Part shown: one piece after another, positions 3,799-28,202 of the stretch
Numbering within the stretch: position 1 is the first letter of the stretch
Layout of the letters: every line of letters begins with the position of its first letter
Source: Stappia sp. ES.058
GTDB taxonomy: Bacteria > Pseudomonadota > Alphaproteobacteria > Rhizobiales > Stappiaceae
DNA length: 64,000 bases
Direction: 5' to 3'
Assembly: GCF_900105595.1 (NCBI RefSeq)
Contig: NZ_LT629784.1
Coordinates: forward strand, 3,874,501-3,938,500
Notes under the pieces: model-generated
The model's database searches: none
Seen by the model: the letters and a program-made list of their open reading frames with translations, nothing else
Told to the model about the DNA's origin: nothing
Position numbers and translations under genes: made by a program

Positions 3799-3801
3799 AC
3801 T

Positions 3802-7898: not shown

Positions 7899-8013
7899 GC
7901 TCTCCTTATTACCACTCTCCCTTGTCCATATCAGAACAAAAAGAGAACACTATAGGTATAAATTCCTATATTTTCAAGTACTTTCTCCAAAAATACTTGA
8001 GACCGCAGGCCAT

Positions 8014-8622
8014 CTACCGTGAAAGCGATAGGCTTTGCTGGCGCGGTTGCTGGGCACGCTGCTCTTCAGCTTCAATCTGCGGGCGATAATACTGGGTATC
8101 CAGATCCTTACCCCATTCGTAAAAATCGCGACCCTGCTGGAGCTTGAAGGCTTCACTCATGAGCCGCTTGGCCCCAAGCTCGGTAATATCGAGATTGGCT
8201 GCCATATCCTGGGCCTGGTGGGCGGCGGCGCGATGGAAGGAAATCTTGTTGCCATCGCGCACCATGGGCTCGACGGCGCGGGCATAAATCACGGCGCCGG
8301 ATTTTTGCTCTGGCGTTAAAGCCTCTTCATTGGCTTTGAGCCTTTCGCGCATCTGGTTCATGGTCATGCCGGTTCTGGCTTTGAACAGATCACGCACAAT
8401 GGTTTCGGCCTTCATCTGGTCGAACTTTTCCGTCCGGGCATAAGCGAAGGAAAAGTCCTGAAGCTTTTCCTTGAAAACGCCTGACTTTTTAATCTCCTGC
8501 TCGATGATACCGGTGATGGTCATCCCCTCATCAAACTGGCTATTGGTCAAAAGCCGCCCTGAAAAGCTCTCGCGGGCAGCAGCTACTCTTTCCATTTCCT
8601 TCGGATCGTAAGTGAGATTCAT
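8014..8622 (-). CDS. hypothetical transfer-region protein
   Basis: A 202-residue charged, helical, soluble protein (MNLTYDPKEMERVAAARESF, later RTEKFDQMKAETIVRDLFKA). No family is recognised. It is last in a minus-strand run that begins near 15.0 kb and includes the coupling protein, with short gaps and overlaps, so it probably belongs to the mobilization operon. The C-terminus is glutamine- and arginine-rich. It could be a relaxosome or coupling-protein accessory; no motif shows this. Confidence 0.6.
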   Translation of the reverse strand: MNLTYDPKEMERVAAARESFSGRLLTNSQFDEGMTITGIIEQEIKKSGVFKEKLQDFSFAYARTEKFDQMKAETIVRDLFKARTGMTMNQMRERLKANEEALTPEQKSGAVIYARAVEPMVRDGNKISFHRAAAHQAQDMAANLDITELGAKRLMSEAFKLQQGRDFYEWGKDLDTQYYRPQIEAEEQRAQQPRQQSLSLSR

Positions 8623-8655
8623 AGCGTCTTCTCCTTTTCTAGAGTGGGATGCCGC

Positions 8656-9180
8656 CTAAGGCTGGCGGCTGCGTTTTAGGGATGGTGAACGATGGAGCTG
8701 ACGTGCCTGCGGCTCAGACTTATTGCGGCGTTCAATGCCGCTCCTGCGATCTGCCGCGCGGGAGAAATCCTCATGCAACTGCCGGGATTTTGCGCGGGCG
8801 TGCTGGCAAGTATCGATCAGGCGTTTGATCTCACGCGCCTGCATCTTATCGATGGCGGCTAAGCGCCTGTGATGGGCATGCTGCACATCACGAACGGCCT
8901 GGCGGTTGATGTCGTCTTTGTTCAAGGCATCTCTGCCGAGAAACCGGGGCTTCAAGTCTTTGTTTTTGCGCCCGGCCTCATTGATTATGCGCCTGCGCGC
9001 CATCTCAACGCGCGTGTCGAATTCATTCCTGTAGGCCTTATCTTCGTGCACGCGCCGGGCCTCATGAACCTTCACGATGTCCTGATAGGTTTTCCATTCA
9101 CGGGGCGTGAGGATGAACTTTGCTTCGCGTTTCAAACTGGCCAGTTCAAAGGCGCGGCGAAGATCGTTTTGGATAGACAT
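8656..9180 (-). CDS. hypothetical basic coiled protein of the transfer region
   Basis: A 174-residue, very basic, helical protein with long runs of arginine, lysine and glutamate (HEARRVHEDKAYRNEFDTRV, then HAHHRRLAAIDKMQAREIKR). The composition resembles C-terminal tails of relaxases and nucleic-acid-binding accessory proteins, but no catalytic motif is seen. Its ATG at 9180 overlaps the stop of the preceding small membrane protein by one base (TGATG). A DNA-binding accessory role in mobilization is plausible from charge and position only. Confidence 0.6.
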   Translation of the reverse strand: MSIQNDLRRAFELASLKREAKFILTPREWKTYQDIVKVHEARRVHEDKAYRNEFDTRVEMARRRIINEAGRKNKDLKPRFLGRDALNKDDINRQAVRDVQHAHHRRLAAIDKMQAREIKRLIDTCQHARAKSRQLHEDFSRAADRRSGIERRNKSEPQARQLHRSPSLKRSRQP

Positions 9181-9434
9181 CAGCGCGCCCCCCTCAGCTT
9201 AAAAAACCGAATGAACGCGCACGCGCCATCGCGGGGAAAATGCACTTCAAAGCGGCCATAGGGACCCGAGTAATTGCAGCGGGAATGAATGCGCTGCTTA
9301 TGGCCTGCATAGGTTCGGCCATGCGTGCTGGTTAAAACATGCGGCAGGCCGTAGATGGCAACGGCCACATAAGCGGCCACCGGCACCGCCAGCCAGATGA
9401 AATAAACCGCGCGCAGGAAACGAGGTTTTTTCAT
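9180..9434 (-). CDS. small single-membrane-helix protein
   Basis: An 84-residue protein with one N-terminal hydrophobic helix (FLRAVYFIWLAVPVAAYVAV) after a short basic start, so it is either an anchored or an exported small protein. The rest is short, basic and contains one cysteine. Its start overlaps the coupling-protein stop (ATGA) and its stop overlaps the next start, so it is firmly inside the operon. This arrangement next to a TraG-like gene recalls small Tra membrane proteins, but I recognise no family. Confidence 0.65.
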   Translation of the reverse strand: MKKPRFLRAVYFIWLAVPVAAYVAVAIYGLPHVLTSTHGRTYAGHKQRIHSRCNYSGPYGRFEVHFPRDGACAFIRFFKLRGAR

Positions 9435-10885
9435 GTGCGCCTCCTGGGCGGCGCGGCGATGCGGACACGCGGATCAGGTGTTAAAACACCGCCTTCAAGC
9501 GGGTTCGGCGCAATCTCATGACAGTAAGGCGCAAGATGTTGCTGGCTGGCTTTTTCGCACACGATAAAGCCCACGCCGCTGACATAGATGACCTGACAAT
9601 TTGGCGGCAGGCGCATTAATTCTTCGGCGGTGAATATCCGCTCGCGGCCCGTGCTAAGCCCGCCGGAAAATTCAGGATTGCCTGAATTGTAATTGAGGCT
9701 GGAGCTCAATGTCTCGCGCTCACCCATGGCGCGGCTGACACGTTCGGCTTCTTCGACATTGGCAAATTTGAGCCATTGGACGACACGAACATTGTCTTCC
9801 AATGTCGCAATCAGCTTGTCGCCATTTTGCCGCTGCATATCTGAACGGGACTGCGCGATAAAAAGCGTGCGCAGACCAAAGGCGCGCTGGATCGTGACTT
9901 TTTCAATCATGTCACGCGCGGGCGTGTTGGCCGCTTCATCGAAGACGAGATCGGTACGGCCGCAGCCGCCAGCCATTTGCGCGCTCGTAAAGGCGTTAAA
10001 GTGCAGGCCGTAATAGATGCCAAGCCGCGCCGCATTGCGCTGGTTCTGGACCAGGAAAACGATGTAGTTTTCTTTTAAAAGCTGCTCATGCGTAATCTCG
10101 GCATGCGCTCCCGCATCTTGCAGCGGTCCTCCCGGTGCAAAGATGCGAAGGGCTGAAAGCGCGGCCAGATAATGCTGGCTGTAATGCTCCGGATCATTGT
10201 CATGCAGCTCTTTGATCTGCATGGCGCGCGAGCGGGTAAGCGGCGCGCCTTCTTCGGCCTCTGTCGCAACCGCGCTCATCCACATCTGCGGATCGGATAA
10301 GAAAGCCGCAACTCCGCCTGGCGTTGCCAGATTGGGAAAACGGCTAATCAAGATCAGTATCGCAAGCTCAAGAAATTCACGCGGAACCTGTCGCCAGAAG
10401 GTATTCTTTGGATCGTCCTTCGGCTCGTTGATGAAGATGTGCGAGACGTTTTCAATTTCCAGCATCAGGCTGGAACTCTTGGCCTGATACGCCGCTATCA
10501 AGTTGCTGAGTGGATTGAGAGAAATGCAATATGGGGCGAACTCATCGCCGAGCTCACTGTTGTCATCGAGGGCCGCGACTTTGCGGCCATAAGATTGACA
10601 GAGCCTGATAAGCTGCGCGGTAATCTCTCCGGACTTTACATCATTCACGACTAAAGACCGGTCTGTATCGGCCAGCATGGAAAGGACTTCCGGCACGGCC
10701 ACACAGGTCGTTTTACCCCCGCCAGCCGCTGCATAGATCAGCGACGAAGACGTACTATCCGGCTCGAAAATCGGGCTGCCGTCTTCCAGAGAAAAACCGA
10801 GTATTCGCCGGCAATCCCCGGAGGCGCCCCGGCGGGCCTTTCGGTTTAATCCCGCCGGAAAAAGCTTTTGCAAAAGGCCGCTCAT
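9431..10885 (-). CDS. VirD4/TraG-type coupling protein (type IV coupling ATPase)
   Basis: A 484-residue ATPase that would link the relaxosome to a type IV secretion channel at the inner membrane. Walker A is seen in SLIYAAAGGGKTTC and Walker B in DLVFDEAAN; the family motif around FGLRTLFIAQSRSDMQ follows. Family members usually have two N-terminal membrane helices; here the start at 10885 gives a soluble protein, and the helices may be provided by the preceding gene (10882-11169), which has them and overlaps it by ATGA. So the coupling protein seems split into a membrane piece and an ATPase piece. No VirB genes are in the window, so a helper element would be needed. Confidence 0.88.
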   Translation of the reverse strand: MSGLLQKLFPAGLNRKARRGASGDCRRILGFSLEDGSPIFEPDSTSSSLIYAAAGGGKTTCVAVPEVLSMLADTDRSLVVNDVKSGEITAQLIRLCQSYGRKVAALDDNSELGDEFAPYCISLNPLSNLIAAYQAKSSSLMLEIENVSHIFINEPKDDPKNTFWRQVPREFLELAILILISRFPNLATPGGVAAFLSDPQMWMSAVATEAEEGAPLTRSRAMQIKELHDNDPEHYSQHYLAALSALRIFAPGGPLQDAGAHAEITHEQLLKENYIVFLVQNQRNAARLGIYYGLHFNAFTSAQMAGGCGRTDLVFDEAANTPARDMIEKVTIQRAFGLRTLFIAQSRSDMQRQNGDKLIATLEDNVRVVQWLKFANVEEAERVSRAMGERETLSSSLNYNSGNPEFSGGLSTGRERIFTAEELMRLPPNCQVIYVSGVGFIVCEKASQQHLAPYCHEIAPNPLEGGVLTPDPRVRIAAPPRRRT

Positions 10886-11169
10886 CGCAGCATGCCCGCT
10901 TTGCGAAGCGCCTCGGCGCTTGCGAGTGTTGCAGACTTGGGCTGGGCACGCTTTGAATACTCCGCGAACAGCTTGAGCTTGCGCATCAAGGCAATAGCGC
11001 GAACAAGCAATTTGAATGACGAAATGGCAAGAAGAATGGAAAGGAAGCCAAAGCCCCACCATTCAATCGATGTTGGCCAGATGAAAAATGCGCTCGCGCC
11101 ACAGATTGTTGCCACCAGCAAATTGACATTGATCCTGACAATGTCCCCAAAGGCGTTATACGCACTCAT
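10882..11169 (-). CDS. two-helix membrane protein, probable membrane part of the coupling protein
   Basis: A 95-residue protein with two hydrophobic helices (LLVATICGASAFFIWP and WWGFGFLSILLAISSFKLLV) separated by a short loop, followed by a basic cytoplasmic tail. This is the same topology as the N-terminal membrane domain of VirD4/TraG proteins. Its stop overlaps the start of the soluble ATPase gene (ATGA). I infer that it anchors the ATPase, as a natural split of the usual single chain, but an independent small Tra protein cannot be excluded. Confidence 0.65.
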   Translation of the reverse strand: MSAYNAFGDIVRINVNLLVATICGASAFFIWPTSIEWWGFGFLSILLAISSFKLLVRAIALMRKLKLFAEYSKRAQPKSATLASAEALRKAGMLR

Positions 11170-11543
11170 GCAACGCCTCCATTGCTAGCGGCAACGGGTA
11201 GCGCTGCAACAATTTCTCTGCGCTTCGCATCGAGTTCGCCACGCGTGCCCCACACTGCGCCTGTCAGTTCGCTGCCCCGTAAATCGCGGGAAAGGAGTTG
11301 GAGCTGTGCAAGATGGAAACCGCTGAAAGCAGCGCCGATGGCGATGCCAATGCAGGCCTCAATCTCACCGGGATAAAGCAGATCAGAAAACGCTGCAGCG
11401 AAACCGCTAATGCCTCCCGCCAGAATGAGCGCAGGAGCAAGAAGTGGCCTGCGCACAGAGACAACTGAAAGAGTTGGCAACAGGTAGCTATCCCGGTGTG
11501 TTGAGACAGATCGCTCATCAATATGGAGATGACCAAAGATCAT
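11166..11543 (-). CDS. small membrane protein of the transfer operon
   Basis: A 125-residue protein with two likely membrane helices (LLAPALILAGGISGFAAAFS and EACIGIAIGAAFSGFHLAQL), then a charged cytoplasmic tail. Both start and stop overlap the neighbouring genes by four bases. No family is recognised. The chain of ATGA overlaps shows that five to six such small proteins are made together with the coupling protein. Confidence 0.65.
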   Translation of the reverse strand: MIFGHLHIDERSVSTHRDSYLLPTLSVVSVRRPLLAPALILAGGISGFAAAFSDLLYPGEIEACIGIAIGAAFSGFHLAQLQLLSRDLRGSELTGAVWGTRGELDAKRREIVAALPVAASNGGVA

Positions 11544-12064
11544 TTTGCACCTCCGTTAAATTTGCATTTTGGTGCGCGTGCAGCGCTGTCGAGCGTCGCC
11601 TGAAGGCGTGCGACAGATTCCGGCGTGACCATACGTAAGGAGCCGGCATAGAGTGCGAAGGGCATCCGCTTTTCTTCAACCGCCAATGCAATGGCGCAGG
11701 AACAAGTGGTCTCCACACCCTCCAGAGCCGCGTTGATACGGCTTGTTTCCAGCTTCTGGGCGCGGGCCTGCGCGGCCCGCGCCGGGGCGCTTAACAGATC
11801 AAAAAAGCCGCATAGCCCTGCGCTTGAAGGATCGAATTGCCCGGCAATCGCGCGGCAATCAAAGGCATCTAATGGCGCATCGCTTTTATGTTCGCGGCGG
11901 ATGCTGGCCCGCAGGCCAGCCTGGCATTGTGTTTCCCATCCCGACATCGCGATGGTGCGCTTGGCCACCAGAGGTCCAGCAACAAAGTAGGCGGTAAGAG
12001 CAATGACCGCGGCGCCCATCATTAGACCTCCGCTCATCGGTAAGCTGGACAAATCAGCGCGCAT
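11540..12064 (-). CDS. membrane-anchored protein with cysteine-bearing outer domain
   Basis: From the ATG at 12064 this is a 174-residue protein with one N-terminal helix (GGLMMGAAVIALTAYFVAGP), then a soluble domain with about six cysteines (GWETQCQAG, DAFDCRAI, SAGLCGFF, TTCSCAIA, APKCKF). Paired cysteines after an anchor suggest a periplasmic domain held by disulfides. The start overlaps the preceding gene by eleven bases. No family is recognised; a longer start at 12109 is possible but would put residues before the anchor that look out of place. Confidence 0.6.
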   Translation of the reverse strand: MRADLSSLPMSGGLMMGAAVIALTAYFVAGPLVAKRTIAMSGWETQCQAGLRASIRREHKSDAPLDAFDCRAIAGQFDPSSAGLCGFFDLLSAPARAAQARAQKLETSRINAALEGVETTCSCAIALAVEEKRMPFALYAGSLRMVTPESVARLQATLDSAARAPKCKFNGGAK

Positions 12065-12296
12065 CGTTGCCTCCGCTACCAGGGCGGCAGCGGGGATAAC
12101 CGCTCTCACGCGTCTTGCAGGTAATAATCAGGGTCACAGGCGGGCGGGTAGAGACTTCCGCTGCGCCTTCTTCATCAATGATGCCCTTGATGGCGGGATT
12201 TGTGGTCACGAACAGGGTCATAAGGCAAAGGGCGATCAACAGCCCGAAACCCATGGTGGACAGGATGTCGCTCAAAAAACCAAGAAAACGCTGCAT
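12054..12296 (-). CDS. small membrane protein
   Basis: An 80-residue protein with one membrane helix (TMGFGLLIALCLMTLFVTT) preceded by an amphipathic start and followed by a short outer part with two cysteines (ITCKTRESGYPRCRPG). It overlaps the next gene and lies nine bases after the previous one. I recognise no family; it belongs to the same run of small transfer-region membrane proteins. Confidence 0.6.
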   Translation of the reverse strand: MQRFLGFLSDILSTMGFGLLIALCLMTLFVTTNPAIKGIIDEEGAAEVSTRPPVTLIITCKTRESGYPRCRPGSGGNDAR

Positions 12297-12305
12297 CTCA
12301 GGCCC

Positions 12306-12830
12306 TCACTTATTGTCTGAGCGTTCGCGCGGATCGAAGGCGCCGAACTGGCAGTGAGTCTTGGCAGTCGCCCGCAAAGCGGCGGCGCTGAAGCCCATAT
12401 CGCTCAGCACTCCTTTTGGGGCATTTTCCAATGAAGTGTAGGTCGGAGTTGCACCTCCTTGGGCATTGCCAAGGTCGATGCGAGTGGACACATCACCACC
12501 TCCGGCGCTGATGTAGCACCACTGGCTTTTGATAGTGCCCGCAACAACATCCGCACTAGAGGCGAATGTGGTGCCAGTTGAAACCTCGTACTTCGTACCT
12601 TCAATGCGCTTACGGGCGAAGAACGTAATGTCTTCAACGCCTTTCAGCGCCGTTTTCAGATCCTCTTCCGGCTTGTCGAAGTTTTTCCAAAAATCCGCTA
12701 CCGACGCACCGAAATTCATCAGCGCATTCTTTCCGTCAAAATCGCGGGCAATGAGAGCGGTGATGCCGAACATCGTAGCTCCAGTGAGTACTCCGGCGGC
12801 GGTGGTTCCAAGAAGACGGGAAACGCTCAT
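12306..12830 (-). CDS. membrane-anchored or exported protein of the transfer region
   Basis: From the ATG at 12830 a 174-residue protein begins with a hydrophobic segment (LLGTTAAGVLTGATMFGITA) that is a signal anchor or signal peptide, then a soluble domain with two cysteines (KSQWCYISAGG and KTHCQFGAF). The sequence CYISAGGGDVSTRIDLGNAQ suggests a beta-rich periplasmic domain. No family is recognised. It sits between the four-helix protein gene upstream and the cysteine-bearing proteins downstream, all minus strand. Confidence 0.6.
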   Translation of the reverse strand: MSVSRLLGTTAAGVLTGATMFGITALIARDFDGKNALMNFGASVADFWKNFDKPEEDLKTALKGVEDITFFARKRIEGTKYEVSTGTTFASSADVVAGTIKSQWCYISAGGGDVSTRIDLGNAQGGATPTYTSLENAPKGVLSDMGFSAAALRATAKTHCQFGAFDPRERSDNK

Positions 12831-12862
12831 AATCCTTCCTTTCAAAGAATGTTGGTGGCGGG

Positions 12863-14194
12863 TCAGGTGGAAGAGACTTGGTCGTCGTCGTGTTCATCGC
12901 CTTTGCGCGCTTCAACCTCGCGGAAGGCTGTAATCAGGATGATCAGCAACGCTCCTGGCGCGATATCGATGAAGACGGCCGCCAGCCACTGCGGAAACAG
13001 CGGTTTCCACTTGGTGCGGATGGCGGTCATTGCATCTTGTGGCCGAACGCGCTTGAGTTCGGGTTCGTCGATAGCGCGGAGCTGTGTTGCCGCTGACTGC
13101 AACGCTTCGGCCACCGGCTTCGCCATCTCAGCAATGATGCCAAGCTGTGCATTCTGATTTTTCTCGAACGCTGATGAGGCAGTTGTCGGTGCCGGAAAAA
13201 TTGCCTTTAAGCTCGTAAGCGTTGCTTCTATCGATACCGCGTAATCCAGTTGAGAAAGCCGACCCAAAAGGTCGTCCATCTGATCGGCAGCGTTAGATAC
13301 AGCTTCAACACGCGGGCGGATCGGTCCTTGCGTAAAGGTTGCGCGTTTAAGCTGGCTTGATGCCGCGCTGATACGTGACTGCAGCTGCTGGGACGCGGCA
13401 ATGCCAGATTTAAGTTCAGTCAACGTTGTATCGAGCAGACTGGCAACCTGACCAAAGCCAGACGAAACTTTTCCTGGGCCGGGACTACCCGAATAGGTCC
13501 CGTGCTTGATTTCACCCTCTTCGAGCTTGCGGAACCTTTCGGCTTGAGCCTGAATCGCTGGAACAAGGCGCTGCGCCATCGTCGCACGCGCAAAAATGGC
13601 ACTCTTCTGATCTTCATAAAATATCGTTGTATCGGTCAGCGTCATCTGCACTGCCGAACCGCCGCCGAGCGCCAGCATGTTGAACGGCGCATCAATCGCG
13701 GCAATGGAGAGTACGTAAAACACGGCGGCAGCAAGAGAAGCTCCGAGCCGTTTGCCGCGCAGGCGGTAAATCAAGCCGAAGAGGTAAAACCAGCCCAGCC
13801 ACGAAAAGACGCCAATGGTAATGGCAAAGGCGAGCGCCTGACCTTTCTGGACAATATCACCGCCAAGTTCGGTCAGCGGAACCGACACGCCGTAATAGGT
13901 CAGCATGACCGTGGCGGTGCTTGGGATCATCAGCAAAATGCCGGTCAGCATTTCGCGGAACGTCACTTTCTTGAACAAGATGCTGGAGTTGCTGCGCTTG
14001 GACCGAAGCCAGCGATGGATTGCACGAGGGAGTATTTGTAAAATGGCATACAGCGAATGCGGGGTGGTATTGTTAGACGAGCAAGTCGTGTCAGCGACAT
14101 CGTTTGGATGCCTACTATTTACCTTGTCAGCGGTTTTTGATTTCGGCTTACGGCCGTGCGGCGTACCGCCTTCTAGTGTATTTAGGACAGCCAT
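12863..14194 (-). CDS. multi-span membrane protein with large helical domain
   Basis: A 443-residue protein with four membrane helices: three grouped at about residues 85-180 (GILLMIPSTATVMLTYYGV, FAITIGVFSWLGWFYLFGLI, GASLAAAVFYVLSIAAIDAP) and one at about 408-428 (LAAVFIDIAPGALLIILITA). Between them lies a 200-residue helical, coiled-coil-like domain, probably periplasmic. The first 80 residues are soluble and basic. This topology resembles a scaffold or pore-associated protein and not a transporter. No family is recognised. It is the first membrane gene of the operon, so it may nucleate the complex formed with the smaller proteins downstream. Confidence 0.65.
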   Translation of the reverse strand: MAVLNTLEGGTPHGRKPKSKTADKVNSRHPNDVADTTCSSNNTTPHSLYAILQILPRAIHRWLRSKRSNSSILFKKVTFREMLTGILLMIPSTATVMLTYYGVSVPLTELGGDIVQKGQALAFAITIGVFSWLGWFYLFGLIYRLRGKRLGASLAAAVFYVLSIAAIDAPFNMLALGGGSAVQMTLTDTTIFYEDQKSAIFARATMAQRLVPAIQAQAERFRKLEEGEIKHGTYSGSPGPGKVSSGFGQVASLLDTTLTELKSGIAASQQLQSRISAASSQLKRATFTQGPIRPRVEAVSNAADQMDDLLGRLSQLDYAVSIEATLTSLKAIFPAPTTASSAFEKNQNAQLGIIAEMAKPVAEALQSAATQLRAIDEPELKRVRPQDAMTAIRTKWKPLFPQWLAAVFIDIAPGALLIILITAFREVEARKGDEHDDDQVSST

Positions 14195-14212
14195 GTTTCA
14201 TGCTCCTTTTTG

Positions 14213-15022
14213 CTATTTTTCGCTGAGGATCAAAGGCTTTGCACAGGTAGTGCAGGTCAGGGCCGCCTGTGGCTTCGCCCAGGCATTCAAGCCGCACACG
14301 CTGCAAGTGAATTTCGCGCGCGTTTGTTTTTTCTTCGGAACTTTGGTCTTTCGGCTGCGCCCTGTAGCGAAGGGGTTGGCTTTGTCGAAGCTATTGGCGG
14401 GCTCAGCGTCTATGGCTTCATGCCAATTGAAGCGCATACCGCTCTCAAAGAGCCGTGTTGCGAGTTGATCGAAAGGGCCATCCGGGATGATGTAATGCAT
14501 CACCTGTTGGCCCGTTTCCTTTCCCCCGGGGCAACCAGTATTGGAAGGGAAGAGACCGATGCGCTTCATCTCGTCACCCCAGGCTTTATCGTGATATCCG
14601 ACGCTACCGCGATTGCCTTTGCTATCGACGGGACCAAGTGTGTGCCGCCAATGGTGCGCCATCTCATGGGCAAGAATGCTGGTAGCCGAAATCGGGTGCA
14701 GTAGAGCCAAATGGACAGGGTTGAGTGCAATCTTGGCGCATCGTTCGCCACTACTGCGAACCAGGCTCTTCGGGGAATAATATCCGAGAATTCTCGTTTG
14801 GTGGGTGTAGGTAAAGATACAATCAGACAGCGCCCCGTCCCAAAAGGCGGAATTGAACTCATCGAAAATTGTGATGAATTCTTGCGGAACCTCTACAGCT
14901 GGACGGTAGTTTGTCTGCGAGCTGGCGGTAGGATTATTTTGTACAATAGAATTTTGAAAATTTTTGCCTGCAGAGACTACGCCTGATGGGGTTTTTGCAA
15001 TTTGGTTGTTTGTAGAGGTCAT
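14213..15022 (-). CDS. SprT-like zinc metalloprotease
   Basis: A 269-residue protein with a SprT-like catalytic core: SATSILAHEMAHHWRHTLGP contains HExxH, and a further histidine lies downstream (GYHDKAWGDEMKRIG). The C-terminus has a zinc ribbon (FTCSVCGLNAWA, then ALTCTTCAKPL) as in SprT/Spartan-type proteins. I chose the ATG at 15022, which has GGAGAG seven bases upstream. Chromosomal SprT proteins are shorter; copies on conjugative elements and phages are common and are proposed to act on DNA-bound proteins during transfer. Here it is the first gene of the minus-strand transfer run. Confidence 0.8.
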   Translation of the reverse strand: MTSTNNQIAKTPSGVVSAGKNFQNSIVQNNPTASSQTNYRPAVEVPQEFITIFDEFNSAFWDGALSDCIFTYTHQTRILGYYSPKSLVRSSGERCAKIALNPVHLALLHPISATSILAHEMAHHWRHTLGPVDSKGNRGSVGYHDKAWGDEMKRIGLFPSNTGCPGGKETGQQVMHYIIPDGPFDQLATRLFESGMRFNWHEAIDAEPANSFDKANPFATGRSRKTKVPKKKQTRAKFTCSVCGLNAWAKPQAALTCTTCAKPLILSEK

Positions 15023-15152
15023 TAAGCTCTCCAAGGTTTTTCATATGCCTTGGGATCGCTTTTTTGCCGCAGAAGCGCCAACAGAACGCTTGTGAAATTT
15101 TCTGCAAAAAACAGAAGCGCTCTGATAATACTTTATTTAAACGTAAAATTAC

Positions 15153-15181
15153 TTGACATAATTATGCACACAAAGTATTTA
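15153..15181 (+). promoter_or_regulatory. sigma70-type promoter of the 15.2-18.4 kb cassette
   Basis: TTGACA (15153-15158), a spacer of 17, then TATTTA (15176-15181) lie in a very AT-rich stretch 36 bases upstream of the ATG at 15217. It would drive the three plus-strand genes that follow. Confidence 0.65.
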
Positions 15182-15216
15182 TTTGTCTTATTATTTGATT
15201 AATTGATATTTAAGAG

Positions 15217-15645
15217 ATGAAAAACGGAATAAAAGAAATATATACGATTGAAGTAGACTATTATCCGGAGACAGACATACCGAAAGAGATGAATATTCGT
15301 CTTTTGACTGGCGAATTTCATAGTCCGCCCGATGGTCGACCTTCAAGTGTTGAGTTTGATGACCAGGGACGTCCGACAGAGATGGCTTGGCACCATCGAA
15401 ACCTTCTTCACCGATTTAGCGGCCCGGCAATGGTTCGTATAAATCCTGAAAACGGTGTCCATATCGCGGAGTTTTTTCGTATCGTTGTAGACGAAGAAGA
15501 AGATGTTGCCCGCGGACAGAACGAACTCAGTACGATTTTTCGCGATGAGATAACGGGCGAGGTTAAGCAAAAGATGTATGGAGGACGATACAGCAATATC
15601 AAAGGGCACACTGAAGGGTTAAAGGCGCCAAAGCCAATCCGTTGA
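15217..15645 (+). CDS. hypothetical protein, first gene of a cargo cassette
   Basis: A 142-residue soluble protein that I do not recognise. It is acidic in the middle (YNRIVV-like strand, then VVDEEEDVARGQNELSTIF) and basic at the end. The start at 15217 follows a strong promoter and an AAGAG site. Its base composition is lower in GC than the transfer genes on the left, a sign of separate origin. Two plus-strand genes follow after 56 and 3 bases, so the three form one likely operon. A regulatory or immunity-type small partner is possible; nothing in the sequence proves it. Confidence 0.6.
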   Translation: MKNGIKEIYTIEVDYYPETDIPKEMNIRLLTGEFHSPPDGRPSSVEFDDQGRPTEMAWHHRNLLHRFSGPAMVRINPENGVHIAEFFRIVVDEEEDVARGQNELSTIFRDEITGEVKQKMYGGRYSNIKGHTEGLKAPKPIR

Positions 15646-15701
15646 TTTTATTAAGAACCTAAGGCAGATTTCCCCACGCAGATAACTTGAGGGAATGTAA
15701 G

Positions 15702-16778
15702 TTGAAAGCTCGCGCAGTACGTACTTACGAAGAGTTTAGGAGACTGATACCGGATACATATATCAAAAAGCGGGCCGAACATTACGGCGAATTTAAAATG
15801 GCTGTCGGTAAAGAGTTGCAACGATTTCGCAACAACGGCAATGTCCCTCCGACGCGTACAGAAAAAGATCGCCATCAGCGCTGGCAGAACTGGCTGGCAG
15901 AGGTCGAATTCGACATATCCGCTGATACAATTAAGAACTTTGACGACGACATTGTTTACGCTTTGGCACGCGGACAATCCACTGGTGAAAATGCGCTAGC
16001 AGCTTATTACCGCCTTCATGCGCATCTGGCCGATCTTAGTTTTGCTGAGAATATCGATAAGCTTGTTTTTAATAAAACCCTGCGTGAAAAAGGAATCGTC
16101 GTTTTTGAAGCAACTCCTGGGATGCGCGCGCAAAGCGCTGAGTCGGGTTCAGAAAAGGTTGCTGAAAACCCGGCTTGCTTTTGGGGGCTCTACCCCGTTG
16201 AGGCGAAAGCCGTCTTAAGAGAAATATGTTCGTTTTCTCTTTTTGATCGCCAGCCTCCGCGCACCGGCGGGGATGTCGCTATCTTTCTTGAAGTCTCAGC
16301 GCTTTCTACTCCTGATGAGAACGGGCGGCGATATGGCTTTGGCGAGCTTGTTGTGCGGCTACTTTTCACCGGCAAGGACGTTTCATCTCTTGAGTATAAT
16401 AGTTGGTACAATAGAGAACGAAATCTGTCAGAGGGGAAATTTGCCAAACTGTTTGGTTCCGGCTCGGACACCAGCATGCGCCTTAGGTCAGAGCCAGGCT
16501 ATCTTGATGGCCGATACGAAATTCTTGAGCAGGGACATTTCCTAAAAATTCGATCCATAGAAAACGAAATCGAATTTCTAGCCCAGCTTGAATTTAACAA
16601 GCAAGAAAAGAGCCTTGTTTATGCAGATGGTGAGAGCTTGGCATCCGATACCAAGGCAGCCCTGATTTCACTCATCGAATCCGAACAATATGGCGAGAGC
16701 AATCATCTCTTAGGGTGGCTCGTTTTGAACGTCCACAAGTACCAAATCAAGCCGGTTTGCGAGAAGGTTGGAGTCTAG
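15702..16778 (+). CDS. unrecognised 358-residue protein, partner of the pentapeptide fusion
   Basis: I chose the TTG at 15702 because GAGGGA stands seven bases before it; an upstream TTG at 15687 is in frame but has no site. The protein has a helical, basic N-terminal half (TYEEFRRLIPDTYIKKRAEH, then RWQNWLAEVEFDISADTIKN) and a beta-rich C-terminal half (GDVAIFLEVSALSTPDENGR, then YGFGELVVRLLFTG) that could be a ligand-binding or lectin-like fold. There are no membrane helices, no signal peptide, and no nuclease, ATPase or protease motif that I can see. The next gene begins three bases after its stop, so the two products are probably made together. Confidence 0.65.
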   Translation: MKARAVRTYEEFRRLIPDTYIKKRAEHYGEFKMAVGKELQRFRNNGNVPPTRTEKDRHQRWQNWLAEVEFDISADTIKNFDDDIVYALARGQSTGENALAAYYRLHAHLADLSFAENIDKLVFNKTLREKGIVVFEATPGMRAQSAESGSEKVAENPACFWGLYPVEAKAVLREICSFSLFDRQPPRTGGDVAIFLEVSALSTPDENGRRYGFGELVVRLLFTGKDVSSLEYNSWYNRERNLSEGKFAKLFGSGSDTSMRLRSEPGYLDGRYEILEQGHFLKIRSIENEIEFLAQLEFNKQEKSLVYADGESLASDTKAALISLIESEQYGESNHLLGWLVLNVHKYQIKPVCEKVGV

Positions 16779-16781
16779 GTC

Positions 16782-18362
16782 ATGGCTAGCGTTTCCGAGC
16801 GAATTCAGGCTGTTGAACAGGCCGAAACAGAAAATTTTCTTGAGCTTGTGAAGATCGCGAAGCTGGACCCTTCAAAAAGCTTTCAATACGCCAACCTGCG
16901 CGGCGTAGATTTTAGCAACTGCGATCTTGGCGGCTTCAATTTCACGGGCTCGGCCCTCTCAGGAGCGAATTTCTCAGGCTGCAAAATCTCTGACGCATTG
17001 TTTGACAATGTACAACTTCAGCTCCCCGAACTTAGCCGCGCCGACGACTACGATCTTCTCATTAAGAACAGCGTAAATAGGTTCCTTTCTCAGGATGAAA
17101 TAAGAACCAAGAACAAACTGAAATCCCATTTTGAAAGCGCAATTTTTCAATCATCTCCTGAAGCGCAAATTCCTAGAAACTTGCCCGAGAAGCCTTTGGG
17201 TAGAACCATCTTGGTATCTATCGGAAAAGCGGCATCTTCCGCAGCAAAGGCGTTCGAAACTCATTGGGACGGGCCATTGGACGGTCTTGTTCTGACACCC
17301 TATGGCATAGGAGAGCCGAGTGATCGCTTTGCAGTGATCGAAGCAGGATTTCCAGTCCCCGACGGCAATGCACTGTCAGCGGCTGGGAAAATACAAAATC
17401 TAATCTCAAATCTGACGAAAGATGACCTTGTTGTCTTGCTTCTCTCACCCGGCGCGACAGCGCTCACTGCCGCCCCGATTGGCGATATTACTCTGAGCGA
17501 GTTGTCTGATTTGAACCGGCGCCTGCTATCGGTGGGCGCGTCTCTAAGCGACATGAATTTGGTTAGGTCTTATTTGACGGCACATGGCTGCGGCAGGCTC
17601 GCAAATGAAGCTTATCCCGCTCAGCTTGTAACCTTGGTTATTCATGATGGGCCGGCCGATAGTATCGCGCAGGTCGGTGGCTCCCAGACACGCGCAGTTA
17701 ATGTCACCAGCGATGAGGTGGCAGAAATCCTGCATCGGCATCGGATCGACACGCCCATTTCGGTTGATGCCGTGTTGAAAAGTCCCGATTTGGCCCCTCC
17801 CAGTCCCGACGCCCCATGCTTCCAACGAACGACAACAAAGATCGTAACCAGTTGGGATTTAATGCTCAAATATTTTGCAGATTCCGAGGTGTTGGAAGGG
17901 ACTGAGATCGTCAATCTTGGCGCGCTGGAAGGACAAGCCCAGAATATGGCGCAGGAGTTTGCAAATCGCTGCCGCGCGGTTATTGCAGAACGTCACCAGC
18001 ACCCGGTCATGTTAGTTTCAGGAGGTGAAGCAACGGTAGACTACAACGGGGGCGGTATTGGTCAGGGTGGCAGAAACGCGGAATTTTTGCTTAGCCTTGC
18101 AATTGCGCTTGATGGCCAGGCAGGGGTTTCAGCGATAGCTGTAGACACAGATGGGCACGATGGAACAATGGACGCGGCAGGAGCGTTTATAAGTCCGACA
18201 ACATTGGCTCGTGCCAGAGCATCCAATATCGATCCCCAAACATTTCTGCGCCAGCACCATTCGTTCTACTTTTTCCAGCAACTGGATGACCTCATCGTAA
18301 CCGGTCCAACAGGCACCGGTATGAGTGACTTAAGGGCAATCCTGATCGAGCCAGTGAGTTAA
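16782..18362 (+). CDS. pentapeptide-repeat / glycerate-kinase-MOFRL-like fusion protein
   Basis: A 526-residue protein with two parts. Residues about 15-80 hold a helix (AVEQAETENFLELVKIAKLD) and then pentapeptide repeats (YANLRGVDFSNCDLGGFNF, TGSALSGANFSG). From about 140 on it follows the glycerate 2-kinase (TtuD/GckA) plan: VSIGKAASSAAKAFE, then LLLSPGATAL, MNLVRSYL, and a well-kept MOFRL domain (VSGGEATV, GQGGRNAEF, DTDGHDGTMDAAGA, TGPTGTGMSDL). Compared with the ordinary enzyme at 61442-62722, several kinase-domain motifs have changed: SGGAS became SPGAT, the RKALS-RLKGGG stretch became RSYLTAHGCG, and the SGPT loop became VGGSQT. Kinase activity is therefore doubtful. The pentapeptide fusion and the mobile-element cargo position are unusual. 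Confidence 0.8.
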   Translation: MASVSERIQAVEQAETENFLELVKIAKLDPSKSFQYANLRGVDFSNCDLGGFNFTGSALSGANFSGCKISDALFDNVQLQLPELSRADDYDLLIKNSVNRFLSQDEIRTKNKLKSHFESAIFQSSPEAQIPRNLPEKPLGRTILVSIGKAASSAAKAFETHWDGPLDGLVLTPYGIGEPSDRFAVIEAGFPVPDGNALSAAGKIQNLISNLTKDDLVVLLLSPGATALTAAPIGDITLSELSDLNRRLLSVGASLSDMNLVRSYLTAHGCGRLANEAYPAQLVTLVIHDGPADSIAQVGGSQTRAVNVTSDEVAEILHRHRIDTPISVDAVLKSPDLAPPSPDAPCFQRTTTKIVTSWDLMLKYFADSEVLEGTEIVNLGALEGQAQNMAQEFANRCRAVIAERHQHPVMLVSGGEATVDYNGGGIGQGGRNAEFLLSLAIALDGQAGVSAIAVDTDGHDGTMDAAGAFISPTTLARARASNIDPQTFLRQHHSFYFFQQLDDLIVTGPTGTGMSDLRAILIEPVS

Positions 18363-18796
18363 AATTAACGAGCGATTTTTCTGTCCGGGCAGGCTCTATT
18401 GCGCTCACGCTCCACGAAACCCGGAATTCGGTTTTCGCCCATGCGGGTGACGATCCTTGACAGATTGGAATAATGCGGCGGCCTTGGCCGCCATTTTAAT
18501 ATCCGGCGCGTGGATGCCACGCGCTTGGAACCCAAAGACCAGCTTATATCAAAACCGCCGACGCCTGCCGGCTGTGGTTCAATGATCTTCCGCCGCTATT
18601 CGCGGTCTCCCGAGAAGGTCATTGACCCATCGGCGGATTTTGACCGATCGCCCTGTGTAGTCCGCGGCCTTATAGCCGCGGTCATTTTACTTGTTACAGA
18701 CCAGGGTCGCTCGCCGCTTGGCAAGGGTTCATGCGCGGGGTTTTCTCTTTGAAGGCTTCGCAGTTTTGAACCCTTTTCAGCAGTTGCGAGGCCGAT
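18363..18796. other. 434-base gene-free stretch with three strong hairpins
   Basis: No convincing gene is present. Three perfect hairpins stand out: arms 18477-18483 and 18486-18492 followed by ATTTTAAT; arms 18506-18513 and 18517-18524 with loop ATG; arms 18662-18668 and 18675-18681 followed by TCATTTTA. The first may terminate the upstream cassette. The stretch leads into the ArdA gene and could be a structured leader, a single-strand promoter of the kind known upstream of ard genes on conjugative plasmids, or an origin-like region. Confidence 0.5.
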
Positions 18797-19306
18797 ATGA
18801 CACTACTTTTTTACGCCCAACCCTACGACATTTCAGCGGTAGGATTTTATTTCGAGACGATTGAAGAATATGACAAAAAGGCCAGCGGCCTTAAAAACCG
18901 CTCCGGCGACAAGGTCGAAGAATTTGAAATCCAGTTCATTGATGGCGAAGACATCGACACCGCCTTTGCGGCGGCGTGGGGCCTTAGCCAGTGCAATATT
19001 GCGGCCTTTATCGAAGCCGCCCTTGAGTGGGAAGACGATCATAAGACCCGCTATGTCCTCGCCGTTGGTGAATGTGGCTACGATCACGAACAAGTAGCAA
19101 TCGACCCGGACCGCGTGGACATCGACATTTATCATTTGGACAGCATGAAAGAGCTGGCCGAGCAGTTTGTCGATGAAGGGTTATTCGGCGACATCCCCGA
19201 ACGGTTGCAATTTTACCTAGATTACGACGCCATCGCCCGTGATCTGGCGGTTGATTATTCAGAAACTGAAATCGCAGGCCAGCGGCTCATTTACCGCTGC
19301 GCCTGA
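18797..19306 (+). CDS. ardA: ArdA-family antirestriction protein
   Basis: A 169-residue, strongly acidic protein with the ArdA layout: an early GFYFETIEEYDKKASGLKNR, then EEFEIQFIDGEDIDTAFAAA and a late EQFVDEGLFGDIPERLQFYL, YDAIARDL. ArdA proteins mimic bent B-DNA by surface charge and inhibit type I restriction enzymes when a mobile element enters a new cell. Start ATG at 18797 has GAGG upstream. It stands before a ParB-like gene and after a region with hairpins, a typical place for early-entry genes on conjugative elements. Confidence 0.85.
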   Translation: MTLLFYAQPYDISAVGFYFETIEEYDKKASGLKNRSGDKVEEFEIQFIDGEDIDTAFAAAWGLSQCNIAAFIEAALEWEDDHKTRYVLAVGECGYDHEQVAIDPDRVDIDIYHLDSMKELAEQFVDEGLFGDIPERLQFYLDYDAIARDLAVDYSETEIAGQRLIYRCA

Positions 19307-19433
19307 TGCGCTGCCCTGATGCCAGCACAGGGCAGCGCCGCGAGTGTCTGAAACTTCAATCAGTTCCCGCGCTGTCCTCTGGTGCCATCACGCACCGATT
19401 GAAACCACTTGCATTCAACAGGAGGACAAAACC

Positions 19434-21155
19434 ATGCAACTGCAACACATCAATCTCGATCAGCTGAAGACCACTAAAATCAATGTCCGCAAGAAAGGCG
19501 GCAGCGATGTTGACGACCTCATTCCGAGCATTCGCTCGCTCGGCATTGTGCAGCCGCTACTTGTGTGGCCAAACTGCGAAGGATTTGAAATCATCGCAGG
19601 CCAGCGCCGTTACAACGCTCTCAAGAAGATCGCCCTTGATGACGGCGAAGAAAACACCGCCCAGCCCGTGCCTTGTATCATCATGGATGATGGCGACGAT
19701 GCCAAAGCCATTGAAGCATCTCTGGCCGAAAACATCGCCCGTTTGCCGATGGATGAAATCGACCAGTACAAGGCTTTTGCCGCGCTCTCCGGCAAAGGGT
19801 TGTCGCCTTCGGATATTGCCAGCCAGTTCGGCGTGAGTGAGCGCCTTGTCAATCAACGTATGGCAATCGCCAATCTTATTGCGCCTGTCTTAGACCTTTA
19901 TCGCAGCGGCGATATTCGCCCCGAAACGGTGCGGACGCTGACACTGGCAACCAAGGCACAGCAAAAAGAATGGGTACGGCTTTACAAAAGTGATGATGAC
20001 TACGCCCCGCAAGGACGCGCTCTCAAGGATTGGCTTTTTGGCGGTCAGCACATTGCCACAAGCGCGGCGCTGTTTGACTTGCCCGATTATAAAGGCGCGG
20101 TTGTCTCGGACCTCTTCGGTGAGGAAGCCTATTTTTCCGATATCGGGAAGTTCTGGTCACTGCAAAATCAGGCCATCGCCGATGCCAAAGAAAGATATCT
20201 GGCCAAAAGCTGGCGCGAAGTCATTGTCATGGATATTGGCGAGCATTGGTATAGCTGGGAACATGAAGCGACCCCGAAAGATGCAGGCGGCAGGGTCTAT
20301 ATCCAGATTAACGCCAACGGCGAAGTGGCCTGCCACGAGGGTTATCTGACCCGCAAGGAAGCCCAGAAGCTGCAACGGGTTCTCAGCGGTGAAAAAGCAG
20401 AAAAACCGCAGCGCCCCGAACTCACTGGCCCCATGCAGAATTATTTGGACCTGCACAGACATGCCGCCGTGCGCTGCCAGCTTCTATCCCATCAAGGCAT
20501 TGCTTTGCGGCTGGCCGTGGCCCAGATCATCGCAGGCTCTACCCTGTGGTCCTGCGAAGCCGACCCGCAAAAAGCTTCCAATGATGCGACCAGCGAAAGC
20601 TTAACTCACAACAAGGCACAGAGCGCCTTCATAGCCGAACGTGATGCGGTTCGCGATCTATTGGGATTGCATGATGAAGAAGGCGAGACACTGGTTGCCA
20701 AGAAAGGAGAGTTTTGGCGCAGCGCCGATTTCGACACCGTTTTTGCCAAGCTGCTCAAGATGAAAGACAAGGACGTTCAGCGCGTTTTCACCTTTGTTGT
20801 CGCTGAAACGCTGCCTGCGGCAAGCGCGGCGGTCGAGGTACTCGGCGCGATGTTCAAGACCAATATGCTTGATGTCTGGCAGGCCGATCAGACCTTTCTG
20901 GATTTGCTTCGTGACAAAGAAGCCATCAATACCGTTCTGGCCGATATTGGCGGCAAGCAAACAGCGAGCGCCCATATTGCATCAACCGCCAAGGTTCAAA
21001 AGCAGGTTATTGCCCAATATCTTGATGGCACCAGAAAACCAGCCAAAGCGAATTGGAAACCGCGCTACATGGAATTTCCAATGCGCAGCTATACAAGGCG
21101 CGGCGGCATTGATGCCATTGACCGCTATGCCAGCGTTAAAAAGCAATATAGCTGA
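19434..21155 (+). CDS. ParB/RepB/Spo0J-family protein of mobile elements
   Basis: A 573-residue ParB-like protein. The ATG at 19434 has AGGAGG upstream. The ParB N-terminal nuclease-like domain is clear: LDQLKTTKINVRKKGGSDVD, SIRSLGIVQPLLVWP, EIIAGQRRYNAL, ASLAENIARLPMDEIDQYKA, and then the helix-turn-helix KGLSPSDIASQFGVSERLVN. The long C-terminal half (about 350 residues) is the extended form found on plasmids and integrative elements; it is helical and ends in basic residues. No ParA partner is adjacent, so a role as element regulator or DNA-binding factor is as likely as partition. Confidence 0.88.
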   Translation: MQLQHINLDQLKTTKINVRKKGGSDVDDLIPSIRSLGIVQPLLVWPNCEGFEIIAGQRRYNALKKIALDDGEENTAQPVPCIIMDDGDDAKAIEASLAENIARLPMDEIDQYKAFAALSGKGLSPSDIASQFGVSERLVNQRMAIANLIAPVLDLYRSGDIRPETVRTLTLATKAQQKEWVRLYKSDDDYAPQGRALKDWLFGGQHIATSAALFDLPDYKGAVVSDLFGEEAYFSDIGKFWSLQNQAIADAKERYLAKSWREVIVMDIGEHWYSWEHEATPKDAGGRVYIQINANGEVACHEGYLTRKEAQKLQRVLSGEKAEKPQRPELTGPMQNYLDLHRHAAVRCQLLSHQGIALRLAVAQIIAGSTLWSCEADPQKASNDATSESLTHNKAQSAFIAERDAVRDLLGLHDEEGETLVAKKGEFWRSADFDTVFAKLLKMKDKDVQRVFTFVVAETLPAASAAVEVLGAMFKTNMLDVWQADQTFLDLLRDKEAINTVLADIGGKQTASAHIASTAKVQKQVIAQYLDGTRKPAKANWKPRYMEFPMRSYTRRGGIDAIDRYASVKKQYS

Positions 21156-24113: not shown

Positions 24114-27100
24114 ATGATTGAGAGCATTATCCAAGGAAGCCTTTTCACAGCCGACTTCATTACGCAGTCGATAAAAGAAAATACAGACTGGCAAACCATC
24201 ACCGACGATGAGGTAGATGATCTGCGGGAGAAGCTAAGCGGTTTGTTCGATGCATTTCCGAGCGAACAGTCACCGAATGAAACACGCACAGAAGATGACT
24301 TGATATGGCCGATCCTGAAGATTTTGGGATGGGATCAGTTCATGCGTCAGCAAAACTTAACTGTAAAAGGCAGGGATGATGTGCCAGACGGATTGTTGTT
24401 CGCTGACGCAGATACCAAAATACAAGCCGACCAATTTCCTGAAGAATATAAACGATACCAGTTTGGCCTCGCGATAGTAGAGTCCAAGCGCTGGCGTAGG
24501 CCCCTTGATCGCCAGTCGGGAAAGCGTGGTGAGGAGCTGGCACCGTCCACACAGATGCTGCGCTATCTGCGTAGAGTCGACGACCTGACTACCGGCAATT
24601 TGCGGTGGGGCATCCTTACGAATGGCGGCAGATGGCGACTCTACTTTTCGGGTGCGCGCTCTGTATCCGAACAGTTCTTTGAAATAGATCTAGCTGCAGT
24701 GCTCGGGATCGCCGGGCATGGCGATGGTTTATTCGCGCTTGATGATGAGCAGAAGCGACACGCGTTGCGCGTTTTTGCACTCGTTTTTCGCAAGCAAGCA
24801 TTTCTGCCTTCGGCGACTGATCCGCGCACGTTCCATATCCGCGCCCTTGAAGAAGGCAAGTTCTATGAAGAACGTGTAGCTTCTGACCTTTCGGACCTCG
24901 TGTTCGATAAGCTCTACCCGCTGTTGGCGCGCTCGATTGCAGATAAGGCGCCGGATGCGCCGCTCCAGGATGTGCGCGAAGCGGCGCTGATCCTTCTCTA
25001 CAGGCTGCTCTTCATCCTCTATGCGGAAGACCGCGACCTTCTGCCGGTCAATGACCGCCGCTATGACGACTACGGCCTGCGCGACCGTGTCAGGCTCGAT
25101 GTCGGCGACCGCAAGGACAAGGGCGATACATTTTCGAATACGGCGGCGCGATACTGGTCAGTCCTTGACGATCTTTGCCGAGCTATCGACGAAGGCGACA
25201 CCTCGATTGGATTGCCTCCCTATAACGGAGGACTCTTCGACCCGGAACGCACGCCGCTTCTGCGGCAGGTGCGTCTTTCCGACTCGGTCATGGCGGAAGT
25301 GATCGACAAGCTCTCTTTCGAGCGCGCTGACGACACGCGCAAATACATCAACTACCGCGACCTGAGTGTGCAGCAGCTCGGCTCGATCTACGAACGGCTT
25401 CTCGAACACGAAGTCGTCAGGGAGGGCGCGATTGTGGATATCCGCCCGAACATCTTCGCGCGCAAGGGATCGGGCAGCTACTACACGCCTGACGATCTCG
25501 TAAATCTCATCATTCGCGAAACGCTTGAACCGCTGATCGAAGCACGCCTTGCCGCGTTCAGGAACAAGGCCGAAGAGCTCGCGGCCTCGGATCAGGACGA
25601 AGGGCGCAAGCTCGGCATTTTAAGGCGGCTCGATCCGGCCGAAAGGCTGCTCGATCTTAAAATCTGCGATCCGGCCATGGGCTCGGGACACTTCCTTGTC
25701 AGCCTCGTCGACTACATGGCCGACCAGGTCATCACCGCCATGGCGGAAACCGAAACCATGGTCGAGTGGGCGGACTATATCTCGCCGCTTGCCGATCGGA
25801 TCGAAGGCATCCGCAATACCATCCTCGGCAACGCCGAGGAGCGGAGCTGGACAGTCGATCCCGAACAGCTCGATGACCGGCATATCATCCGCCGCATGGT
25901 GTTGAAGCGCTGCGTCTATGGCGTCGATAAGAACCAGATGGCGGTCGAACTGGCCAAGGTTGCTCTCTGGCTGCACAGCTTTACGGTCGGCGCGCCGCTC
26001 TCCTTCCTCGACCACCATCTGCGCTGCGGCGACAGCCTATTCGGCTCCTGGGTGAAGACGGGCATCGAGAAAGCGACGGCCTATGGCAGTCCGCTTCTCC
26101 TGCACGAGCCGGTGAAGACCGCGCTCGGTTCGGCTGCCTCGGTGCAGACCATCGAGGGCCTGCCGGACGCGGAAATCGCGGAAGCGCACCGTTCGCAGGA
26201 AATATTTGAAGGCGTCCAGGTGATGACGGCGCCGCTCAATGCGTTCCTGTCTTTGCTACACGCCATCGAATGGCAAAACCTGAAAGGGAAGGACAACGCC
26301 AAGGCCATTCAGGGCTTCTTCGACGGCTCCTTCGGAGATCCTTTCGAGATTGCGCTTGGCAAGCGTGAGCCGCAGGTGCGCGATGACCACGGCCGCCGCT
26401 TCCTCGAAATCCTGAACGTTGCGCGCGAGCTGGTAGCGGAAGAGCGCTTCCTGAACTGGCAGGTCGCGTTTCCGGGCGTTTGGACGGACTGGGAGAATGA
26501 AGGCTTGTCCGGCGGCTTCGACGCCATCATCGGCAATCCGCCGTGGGATCGCATGAAGCTCCAGCAAGTCGAATGGTTTGCTGCGCGTAAGCGTGAGATT
26601 GCCTTTGCGCAGAAAGCGGCCGATCGCAAGCGGATGATAGACGAACTGGAAAGGAATAACGATCCGCTTTCCGGCGATTTCATAAAAGCGAACGAGCGGG
26701 CCGAAGCGGCAACGCGCATGGCTCGGTCTGGCGGCGATTATCTGCTGCTGTCCGGCGGCGACGTGAATATCTATTCGCTCTTCGTCGAGCGCGCCATGGC
26801 GCTGGTCAAGCGGGACGGCATGGTGGGCCTGCTCACGCCATCCGGTATCGCTTCAGACAAAACGTCATCGACCTTTTTCAAAGGCGTTTCGACACAAGGT
26901 CGGCTGAAGGCGCTGTATGATTTCGAGAATCGGCGCACGCGCTACAATGCCCCTCCGTTCTTCCCCGATGTCGATAGTCGCTTCAAATTCTGCGTTTTTG
27001 TCGCAAGTCCGTCACCGACGCCCGAAGCGGCCATGTGCGCCTTCTTCCTGCAAAGTGTCGCCGAACTTAACGACACTGAACAGCGTTTCCCGCTCACCGC

Positions 27101-28196: not shown

Positions 28197-28202
28197 GGTT
28201 TC

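Follow-up and report, generated by a model that had tools for sequence, protein, structure and literature searches.

A three-gene cargo cassette with an exchangeable C-terminal domain in a mobilizable element of Stappia sp. ES.058

The cassette described here lies in a stretch of 64,000 nucleotides of the Stappia sp. ES.058 genome (the window; contig NZ_LT629784.1, positions 3,874,501 to 3,938,500), next to the transfer genes of a mobilizable element and upstream of a ParB-like gene. The initial annotation had read it as three tightly spaced genes on the plus strand encoding 142, 358 and 526 residues, namely two unrecognised products followed by a pentapeptide/glycerate-kinase-like fusion. The open reading frames (ORFs) bear this out, with 3 nucleotides between genes 2 and 3; for gene 2 the ORF caller picks an upstream TTG at 15687, which gives 363 residues. 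Neither gene 1 nor gene 2 has a significant match in Pfam, NCBIfam, PADLOC or PHROGs (the best PADLOC match of gene 2 is HamB, E 0.037), and the ordinary metabolic or transfer family to which gene 2 might have belonged was thus not encountered in these databases. Gene 3 is one stop-free open frame in a single-contig genome, and the fusion is real. That the cassette represents a modular unit is near certain.

In gene 3, Pfam models place the pentapeptide repeats at residues 37-74 (2.9e-9), DUF4147 at 113-332 (8.4e-48; 163.3 bits, cut-off 23) and MOFRL at 409-516 (4.5e-32; 110.8 bits, cut-off 28.3). When residues 1-140 were searched against 5.8 billion proteins, seven other proteins were retrieved, none of which has kinase domains; all searches of this collection require shared five-residue words, so that distant relatives escape them. 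We read the pentapeptide segment as a connector with an exchangeable C-terminal companion rather than as the scaffold of an enzyme.

The exchange is most directly seen in Stappia sp. TSB10P1A. Genome contigs were searched with the ParB-like gene that follows the cassette, and the 55 resulting loci were scanned for cassette genes. One of them (L086; its genome G844 is taken as G841, the match sharing contig number and coordinates) carries homologues of gene 1 (2350-2841), gene 2 (2897-4036) and gene 3 (4036-5028) in the same order. By inference, its host shares the GTDB genus of the window genome. Since a homologue of a 443-residue protein of the window's transfer region lies at the left end (64% identical over the 169 residues covered) and a ParB-like gene at the right side (48% identical), the cassettes occupy the same element site. 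The two connectors are 42% identical over residues 3-101 (E 1e-28), and in L086 Sel1 repeats stand in place of the kinase domain. Gabija follows next downstream (GajA 5e-232, GajB 8e-218), whereas the three cassette genes of L086 have no PADLOC match. The joint conservation of genes 2 and 3 that the initial annotation had asked for is therefore found in Stappia, but this locus is the only full second example. Gene 2 occurs in 2 of 87 genomes of its own family, in 1 of 385 genomes of the class sample (the window genome only, profile A4) and in 2 of 397 of the order sample, one of these matching no more of the profile than its N-terminal part. The gene 2 alignment identified no locus in genome contigs and viral contigs, and plasmid searches with gene 2, its relative P0004 and the Stappia partner yielded nothing.

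A connector query (residues 1-113) gave a match in 96 of 347 genomes of the order, many to the repeats alone. We examined the flanks of nine matches that start at residue 18 or earlier; at least G158 C45, G141, G024 and G169 also start there and are not part of this set. A gene of the partner type (gene 2) is located upstream in all nine, abutting in seven and at distances of 460 and about 420 nucleotides in L096 and L101, respectively. The class-wide set comprises nine regions starting near the profile start, among the matches listed, with G428 and G461 left out; L173 was dropped, as re-reading gave no connector match. In total, 21 connector loci were tabulated, including the window, L086 and the plasmid loci L007 and L008. 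The partner abuts upstream in 13 (-23 to +5 nucleotides) and is more distant in two. From reading their sequences, the upstream ORFs of L166, L168 and L174 were not counted as partners. The broad profile A6 hits 233 of 385 genomes, mostly through other pentapeptide proteins, and is no gauge of the frequency of the system.

The companions of the connector are mainly recognition or repeat folds. Besides the glycerate-kinase-like domain of the window and Sel1 in L086, they include TPR in L103 and STAND plus TPR in L167. The companion in L096 matches PvdO/GldK/EgtB models, a fold that we take to be of the formylglycine-enzyme type; reading assigns the same to L099 and shortened forms of it to L100 and L101. 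HEAT repeats were found below the cut-off in L008 and by reading in L098, and LRR in L104 and, by reading, in L166, whereas L097, L102, L169 and L170 have the connector with a companion that lacks an assignment. In L167 (3481-7351) the partner overlaps a connector-STAND-TPR protein of 969 residues, whose best PADLOC match has an E-value of 0.002.

The partner is itself a mosaic. Three relatives besides gene 2 itself (P0002-P0004) were found among the 5.8 billion proteins, and at the level of sequence gene 2 shows a sharp break, with a near-identical C-terminal half and an unlike N-terminal half. Residues 151-358 are identical to P0002 at 192 and to P0003 at 190 of 206 positions (92-93%), whereas residues 1-150 agree at 29 and 27 of 129 positions. 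P0002 and P0004 share 65 of 130 residues in the N-terminal and 84 of 208 in the C-terminal half. The C-terminal domain of gene 2 has 40% identity to P0004 and 22% to the Stappia partner. The L100 and L101 partners, too, match in their C-terminal parts only (E 5e-22 over 134-278). The simplest reading of the break would be a recombinational exchange. A structure model (predicted local distance difference test, pLDDT, 63) has helices within residues 9-123 and strands within 160-352, and the N-terminal domain may be a far relative of the P0002-4 domain or another helical domain.

A related element in another family of the order (G145; ParB 58% and coupling protein 49% identical) holds a gene 1 homologue between its transfer genes and ParB, followed by a protein of 783 residues; the 443-residue transfer-region protein has no BLAST match in G145. 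The N-terminal domain of the 783-residue protein matches the gene 2 profile A1 (1.1e-12), and this match runs through P0002-P0004 (5e-16 to 1e-8). The protein continues with a STAND-like NTPase (nSTAND5 only 0.012), and an ApeA-like gene (PF18862, 1.7e-7) adjoins it. As this NTPase resembles the connector-joined NTPase of L167 (27% identity over 180 residues, E 1e-6), one type of NTPase carries two N-terminal modules that are unlike each other. Two further loci (L054, 6180-7681; L072, 2663-4071) carry pairs of genes with a 4-nucleotide overlap between transfer genes and ParB, encoding a protein of 339-363 residues and a short ankyrin-repeat-like protein (by eye). Their sequences could not be linked significantly to the partners, and they perhaps represent another modular pair.

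Comparison by phmmer sorts the partners into three groups: A (window, P0002-4 and Stappia), B (L096, L099, L100 and L101) and C (L097, L098, L008, L102, L104, L167, L169, L170 and L103), with some pairs within C reaching only E 0.002-0.05. Full-length hhalign comparisons gave no significant link between groups (A-C2, E 0.0042, probability 8%; A-B, 0.027), and the N-terminal parts of A and B do not match (E 0.43). The last 110 residues of A and C, however, align with E 2.9e-5 and a score of 34.0 over 77 columns, when the best of 60 column shuffles scored 11.7 and the best of 24 unrelated profiles 17.8. We regard the A-C link as good but not as independent proof, and the membership of group B in a putative partner family as provisional; A and C combined against the B tail gave E 0.0058 over 17 columns. 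For some N-termini of group B an Xre/HTH assignment suggested itself by eye only and is not claimed.

The C-terminal part of gene 3 is homologous to the glycerate kinases of PDB entries 2b8n (E 6e-54) and 1x3l and up to 44% identical to full-length relatives of the order. It resembles class II glycerate 2-kinases (DUF4147-MOFRL) over the whole fold by sequence and differs from them in its N-terminal connector, its cargo context and the state of its conserved residues. In an alignment with 32 other sequences, reduced to 31 by dropping the fragment L133, 42 columns are invariant in the relatives; the window domain keeps 30 and has lost 12. This retention is the lowest of 32 sequences, the next being L003 (42 of 53) and the truncated L130 (42 of 50), with each sequence itself left out of its own count. 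All losses (positions 154, 190, 223, 226, 255, 266, 270, 288, 300, 301, 302 and 313) fall into DUF4147, where they affect 12 of 30 invariant columns, while none of the 11 MOFRL columns has changed. They include H190 and residues of the SGGGS and SGP stretches; DTDGxDG is retained. A literature search on the active site of glycerate 2-kinase found no paper, and the invariant columns denote conservation, not assigned catalytic residues. NCBIfam scores are 155.2 bits versus 550 (NF041176) and 119.9 versus 670 (NF040791), values obtained with no bona fide relative scanned alongside; the names of both models suggest what are presumably narrow thermophile lineages. The enzyme-like fold noted in the initial annotation is thus one that lacks part of its family's conserved residues, and the domain could be either a kinase of changed substrate or a retired enzyme. 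Two other glycerate kinases are encoded in the host genome, one of them inside the window, near its end (61442-62722), with 29% identity to the domain of the cassette. Bradyrhizobium plasmid matches over residues 20-524 were rejected as fusions: in the opened case (H1) the alignment crosses the border between two genes, a tartrate dehydrogenase and a glycerate kinase, and is an artefact.

Gene 1 has a single relative besides itself (P0006) among the 5.8 billion proteins, and homologues in G145 (L006:8633-9136; 27% identity, E 3e-6) and in Stappia (L086:2350-2841; 27% identity, E 4e-7). Motifs of the form (L)HR-x-x-G-PA, read by eye in the sequences, recur in the small proteins of the window, Stappia and L043, and gene 1 looks like a member of an LHRxxGPA-repeat type, to which we would attach the name YwqK/MORN-type. 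No significant family model was found for the proteins of the window, G145, Stappia or L043, and the Pfam models are not reached even by L043, the clearest member. Gene 1 is not a recognised regulator, which was one of the two roles initially proposed for it. In L043 (5907-6500), a related element encodes a protein of 197 residues in which (L)HRxDGPA repeats stand out clearly, and genes 2 and 3 are absent from the stretch covered.

Because a constant connector and partner are combined with exchanged outer domains and with Gabija, ApeA-like, CBASS and type IIG neighbours, it is reasonable to propose, albeit tentatively, that the cassette is a modular, probably anti-phage or anti-element system in which the recognition domain of gene 3 is exchangeable. 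A role of the cassette in defence or conflict is somewhat more likely than not; whether the kinase-like domain serves in recognition is close to an even call. Gene 3 would be a recognition protein. Through its helix-plus-pentapeptide connector it would dock on gene 2, at the beta domain that forms the C-terminal half of that protein, and the trigger would be recognised by the C-terminal domain of gene 3, which is swapped whole between elements. In the window this domain is a class II glycerate-2-kinase fold with drifted DUF4147 loops, and since these loops have drifted, binding of a ligand or of a target protein would be likelier than phosphorylation of glycerate. Gene 2 could relay the signal via its helical N-terminal domain; in the related element G145 a P0002-4-like domain sits at the same place on the STAND-like NTPase. 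Gene 1, as a small repeat protein, may tune or restrain genes 2 and 3.

Several observations weigh against this proposal. PADLOC gives no match at all for genes 1 and 3 and none that convinces for gene 2 or the tested partner and connector proteins (best E 0.002); the ApeA-like gene of G145 has no match there either. The pentapeptide-kinase fusion was found only once, in a search that depends on shared five-residue words and is limited in length. A recognisable partner is missing in 6 of the 21 connector loci, and in the class-wide set, among the matches listed, it abuts in only three of nine regions. Apart from the window and L086, no connector locus yielded a gene 1 homologue (19 loci, covered over 6-12 kb each). 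The P0002-4 N-terminal profile aligns with the N-terminus of the window gene 2 over only 32 residues (5.9 bits, hhalign E 0.028), and the G145 N-terminal domain gives E 0.17-0.26 with the same region. As to the partner family, the 110-residue tail was picked after inspecting the sequences, the tails of A and B align weakly (E 0.0018, score 23.8; shuffles up to 17.2), and those of B and C (E 0.038, score 17.1) exceed the shuffles (13.2) but hardly the best unrelated profiles (16.4 and 15.5). Finally, about five of the 12 losses in the kinase domain are mild exchanges (154, 226, 255, 266 and 313), and K149, D289, E416 and the GGRN motif are retained, so that the domain may still be catalytic.

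The last point leads to the idea that the effector is gene 3 itself, as a functional small-molecule kinase. Once triggered, it would phosphorylate or deplete a metabolite, an altered substrate other than glycerate, and the pentapeptide part would merely tether it to gene 2. Both Pfam domains are complete, the homology to the solved structures is clear, and the retained residues named above extend to DTDGxDG and all MOFRL columns. Nevertheless, the loss of 12 invariant residues including H190, the lowest retention in the alignment, and the prevalence of recognition or repeat folds in the same slot elsewhere make this unlikely. It is a good deal more doubtful still that the kinase domain is ordinary metabolic cargo for glycerate use. 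Its family is indeed metabolic and widespread, with 419 plasmid records, but the host already possesses two other glycerate kinases, signature residues have been lost and Sel1 repeats replace the domain in Stappia; such a function would be very improbable.

Two further explanations place the activity elsewhere, and we consider both of them quite improbable. In one, the effector would be the C-terminal beta domain of gene 2, membrane-active in a pore-forming-like manner and restrained by genes 3 and 1 until infection. A shade less probable would be a module that resembles toxin-antitoxin or element-competition systems and stabilises the element; gene 1 would then be its neutralising component. 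A small first gene, a tight operon and a mobile element speak for such a module, and YwqK-type antitoxin is an annotation given to some LHRxxGPA-like proteins. Yet neither gene 2 nor gene 3 contains a known toxin domain (Pfam, NCBIfam, PADLOC), gene-1-like proteins occur without genes 2 and 3, as in L043, and the connector loci mentioned above lack gene 1.

Returning to the exchangeable recognition system, a wider version of it, which we regard as doubtful, would be an undescribed immune architecture, encountered here in alphaproteobacteria. Here, the connector would plug interchangeable recognition domains (FGS, LRR, HEAT, TPR, Sel1, STAND and a retired metabolic enzyme) onto a beta-domain partner, whose N-terminal module would be swapped independently. 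If this were true, the glycerate-kinase domain would be an enzyme turned into a sensor of a pathogen or metabolite, or a decoy for an enzyme-attacking phage protein. Should the narrower proposal be right, a two-gene system of several alphaproteobacterial genomes and mobile elements would be absent from PADLOC 2.0.0 (2023), and a fold of central metabolism would have been recruited into a recognition slot. Moreover, the loci would provide a natural series in which the type of connector and partner is constant and the recognition domains vary, which would allow the specificity for the trigger to be examined one domain at a time. A literature search of titles and abstract openings found no paper on the pair of pentapeptide connector and partner or on MOFRL together with phage defence.

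The closest parallels among known systems are the EAD- and TRADD-N-type modular conflict systems (Kaur et al. 2020, PMC7159879; 2021, PMC8195603). These have FGS lectin-like sensor domains and kinase domains with disrupted catalytic residues in common with the set considered here; they differ in that here the pentapeptide segment is the constant connector and not part of the variable set, and in that a partner gene abuts the connector on its upstream side. The gene 3 connector resembles an EAD in being one small N-terminal domain on varied effectors or NTPases, whereas matching connector copies in two genes of the operon were not found, as the N-terminal parts of genes 2 and 3 differ. Gabija and an ApeA-like gene in relatives and CBASS in the window share no genes with the cassette; these systems are context, not relatives.

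The features of the cassette are compiled in Table 1.

Table 1. Genes, domains and putative signals of the cassette (positions in the window)
Feature	Position	Strand	Length	Description
Promoter-like TTGACA-17-TATTTA	15153..15181	+		upstream of gene 1; read directly from the letters
Gene 1	15217..15645	+	142 aa	ORF; apparently a small LHRxxGPA-repeat-type protein
Gene 2, partner	15702..16778	+	358 aa from TTG	helical N-terminal and beta C-terminal domain
Gene 2 N-terminal domain, residues 1-150	15702..16151	+		exchanged or strongly diverged compared with P0002
Gene 2 C-terminal beta domain, residues 151-358	16152..16778	+		identity to P0002/P0003
Gene 3, fusion	16782..18362	+	526 aa	ORF
Gene 3 connector, residues 1-113	16782..17120	+		helix, LDP motif, short pentapeptide run; Pfam PF00805
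Gene 3 glycerate-2-kinase-like domain, DUF4147 + MOFRL	17118..18362	+		Pfam and PDB homology
Terminator-like stem, 6 G-C pairs and T-rich tail	18477..18502	+		about 115 nucleotides 3' of gene 3

The view that the cassette is cargo, inserted in a mobilizable element near transfer and defence genes, is supported by its neighbours and its orientation. ORFs read as transfer genes occupy the opposite, minus strand at 8014-15034; they include the coupling-protein gene (9431-11062; 49% identical by tblastn to the PF02534 protein of G145), and a relaxase gene is found at 33625-34896. The lower GC content that had been taken as a mark of cargo holds for genes 1 and 2 (0.458 at 15001-17000, versus 0.535-0.559 on the left side, 8001-15000, and 0.52-0.54 on the right, 17001-21000) and less so for gene 3 (0.498 at 16001-18000). 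A promoter upstream of gene 1 is plausible, since the predicted elements TTGACA and TATTTA are present 17 nucleotides apart, but they are not among the sites of a consensus scan, which gives others there (8 found versus 3.9 expected). The terminator-like stem stems from such a scan as well (7 found versus 5.1 expected) and is hence weak.

Defence genes of the window comprise a CBASS cluster at 29799-33606, between transfer genes and the relaxase gene, with a CD-NTase (PADLOC 1.8e-112), a patatin phospholipase effector (1.9e-95) and a CapP-type peptidase (8.7e-67). In the same interval, at 24114-29318, a type IIG/DrmMI-like methyltransferase gene (1360 residues) precedes a gene that has a PLD domain and resembles DrmC/ZacB weakly. 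A gene for a SprT-like metallopeptidase (14213-15034) separates the transfer genes from the cassette and has relatives at L061, L075 and L087. On the other side, an ArdA-like antirestriction gene (18797-19306) follows the cassette ahead of the ParB-like gene, and an ArdA homologue is located directly upstream of ParB also in 16 of the 55 related loci.

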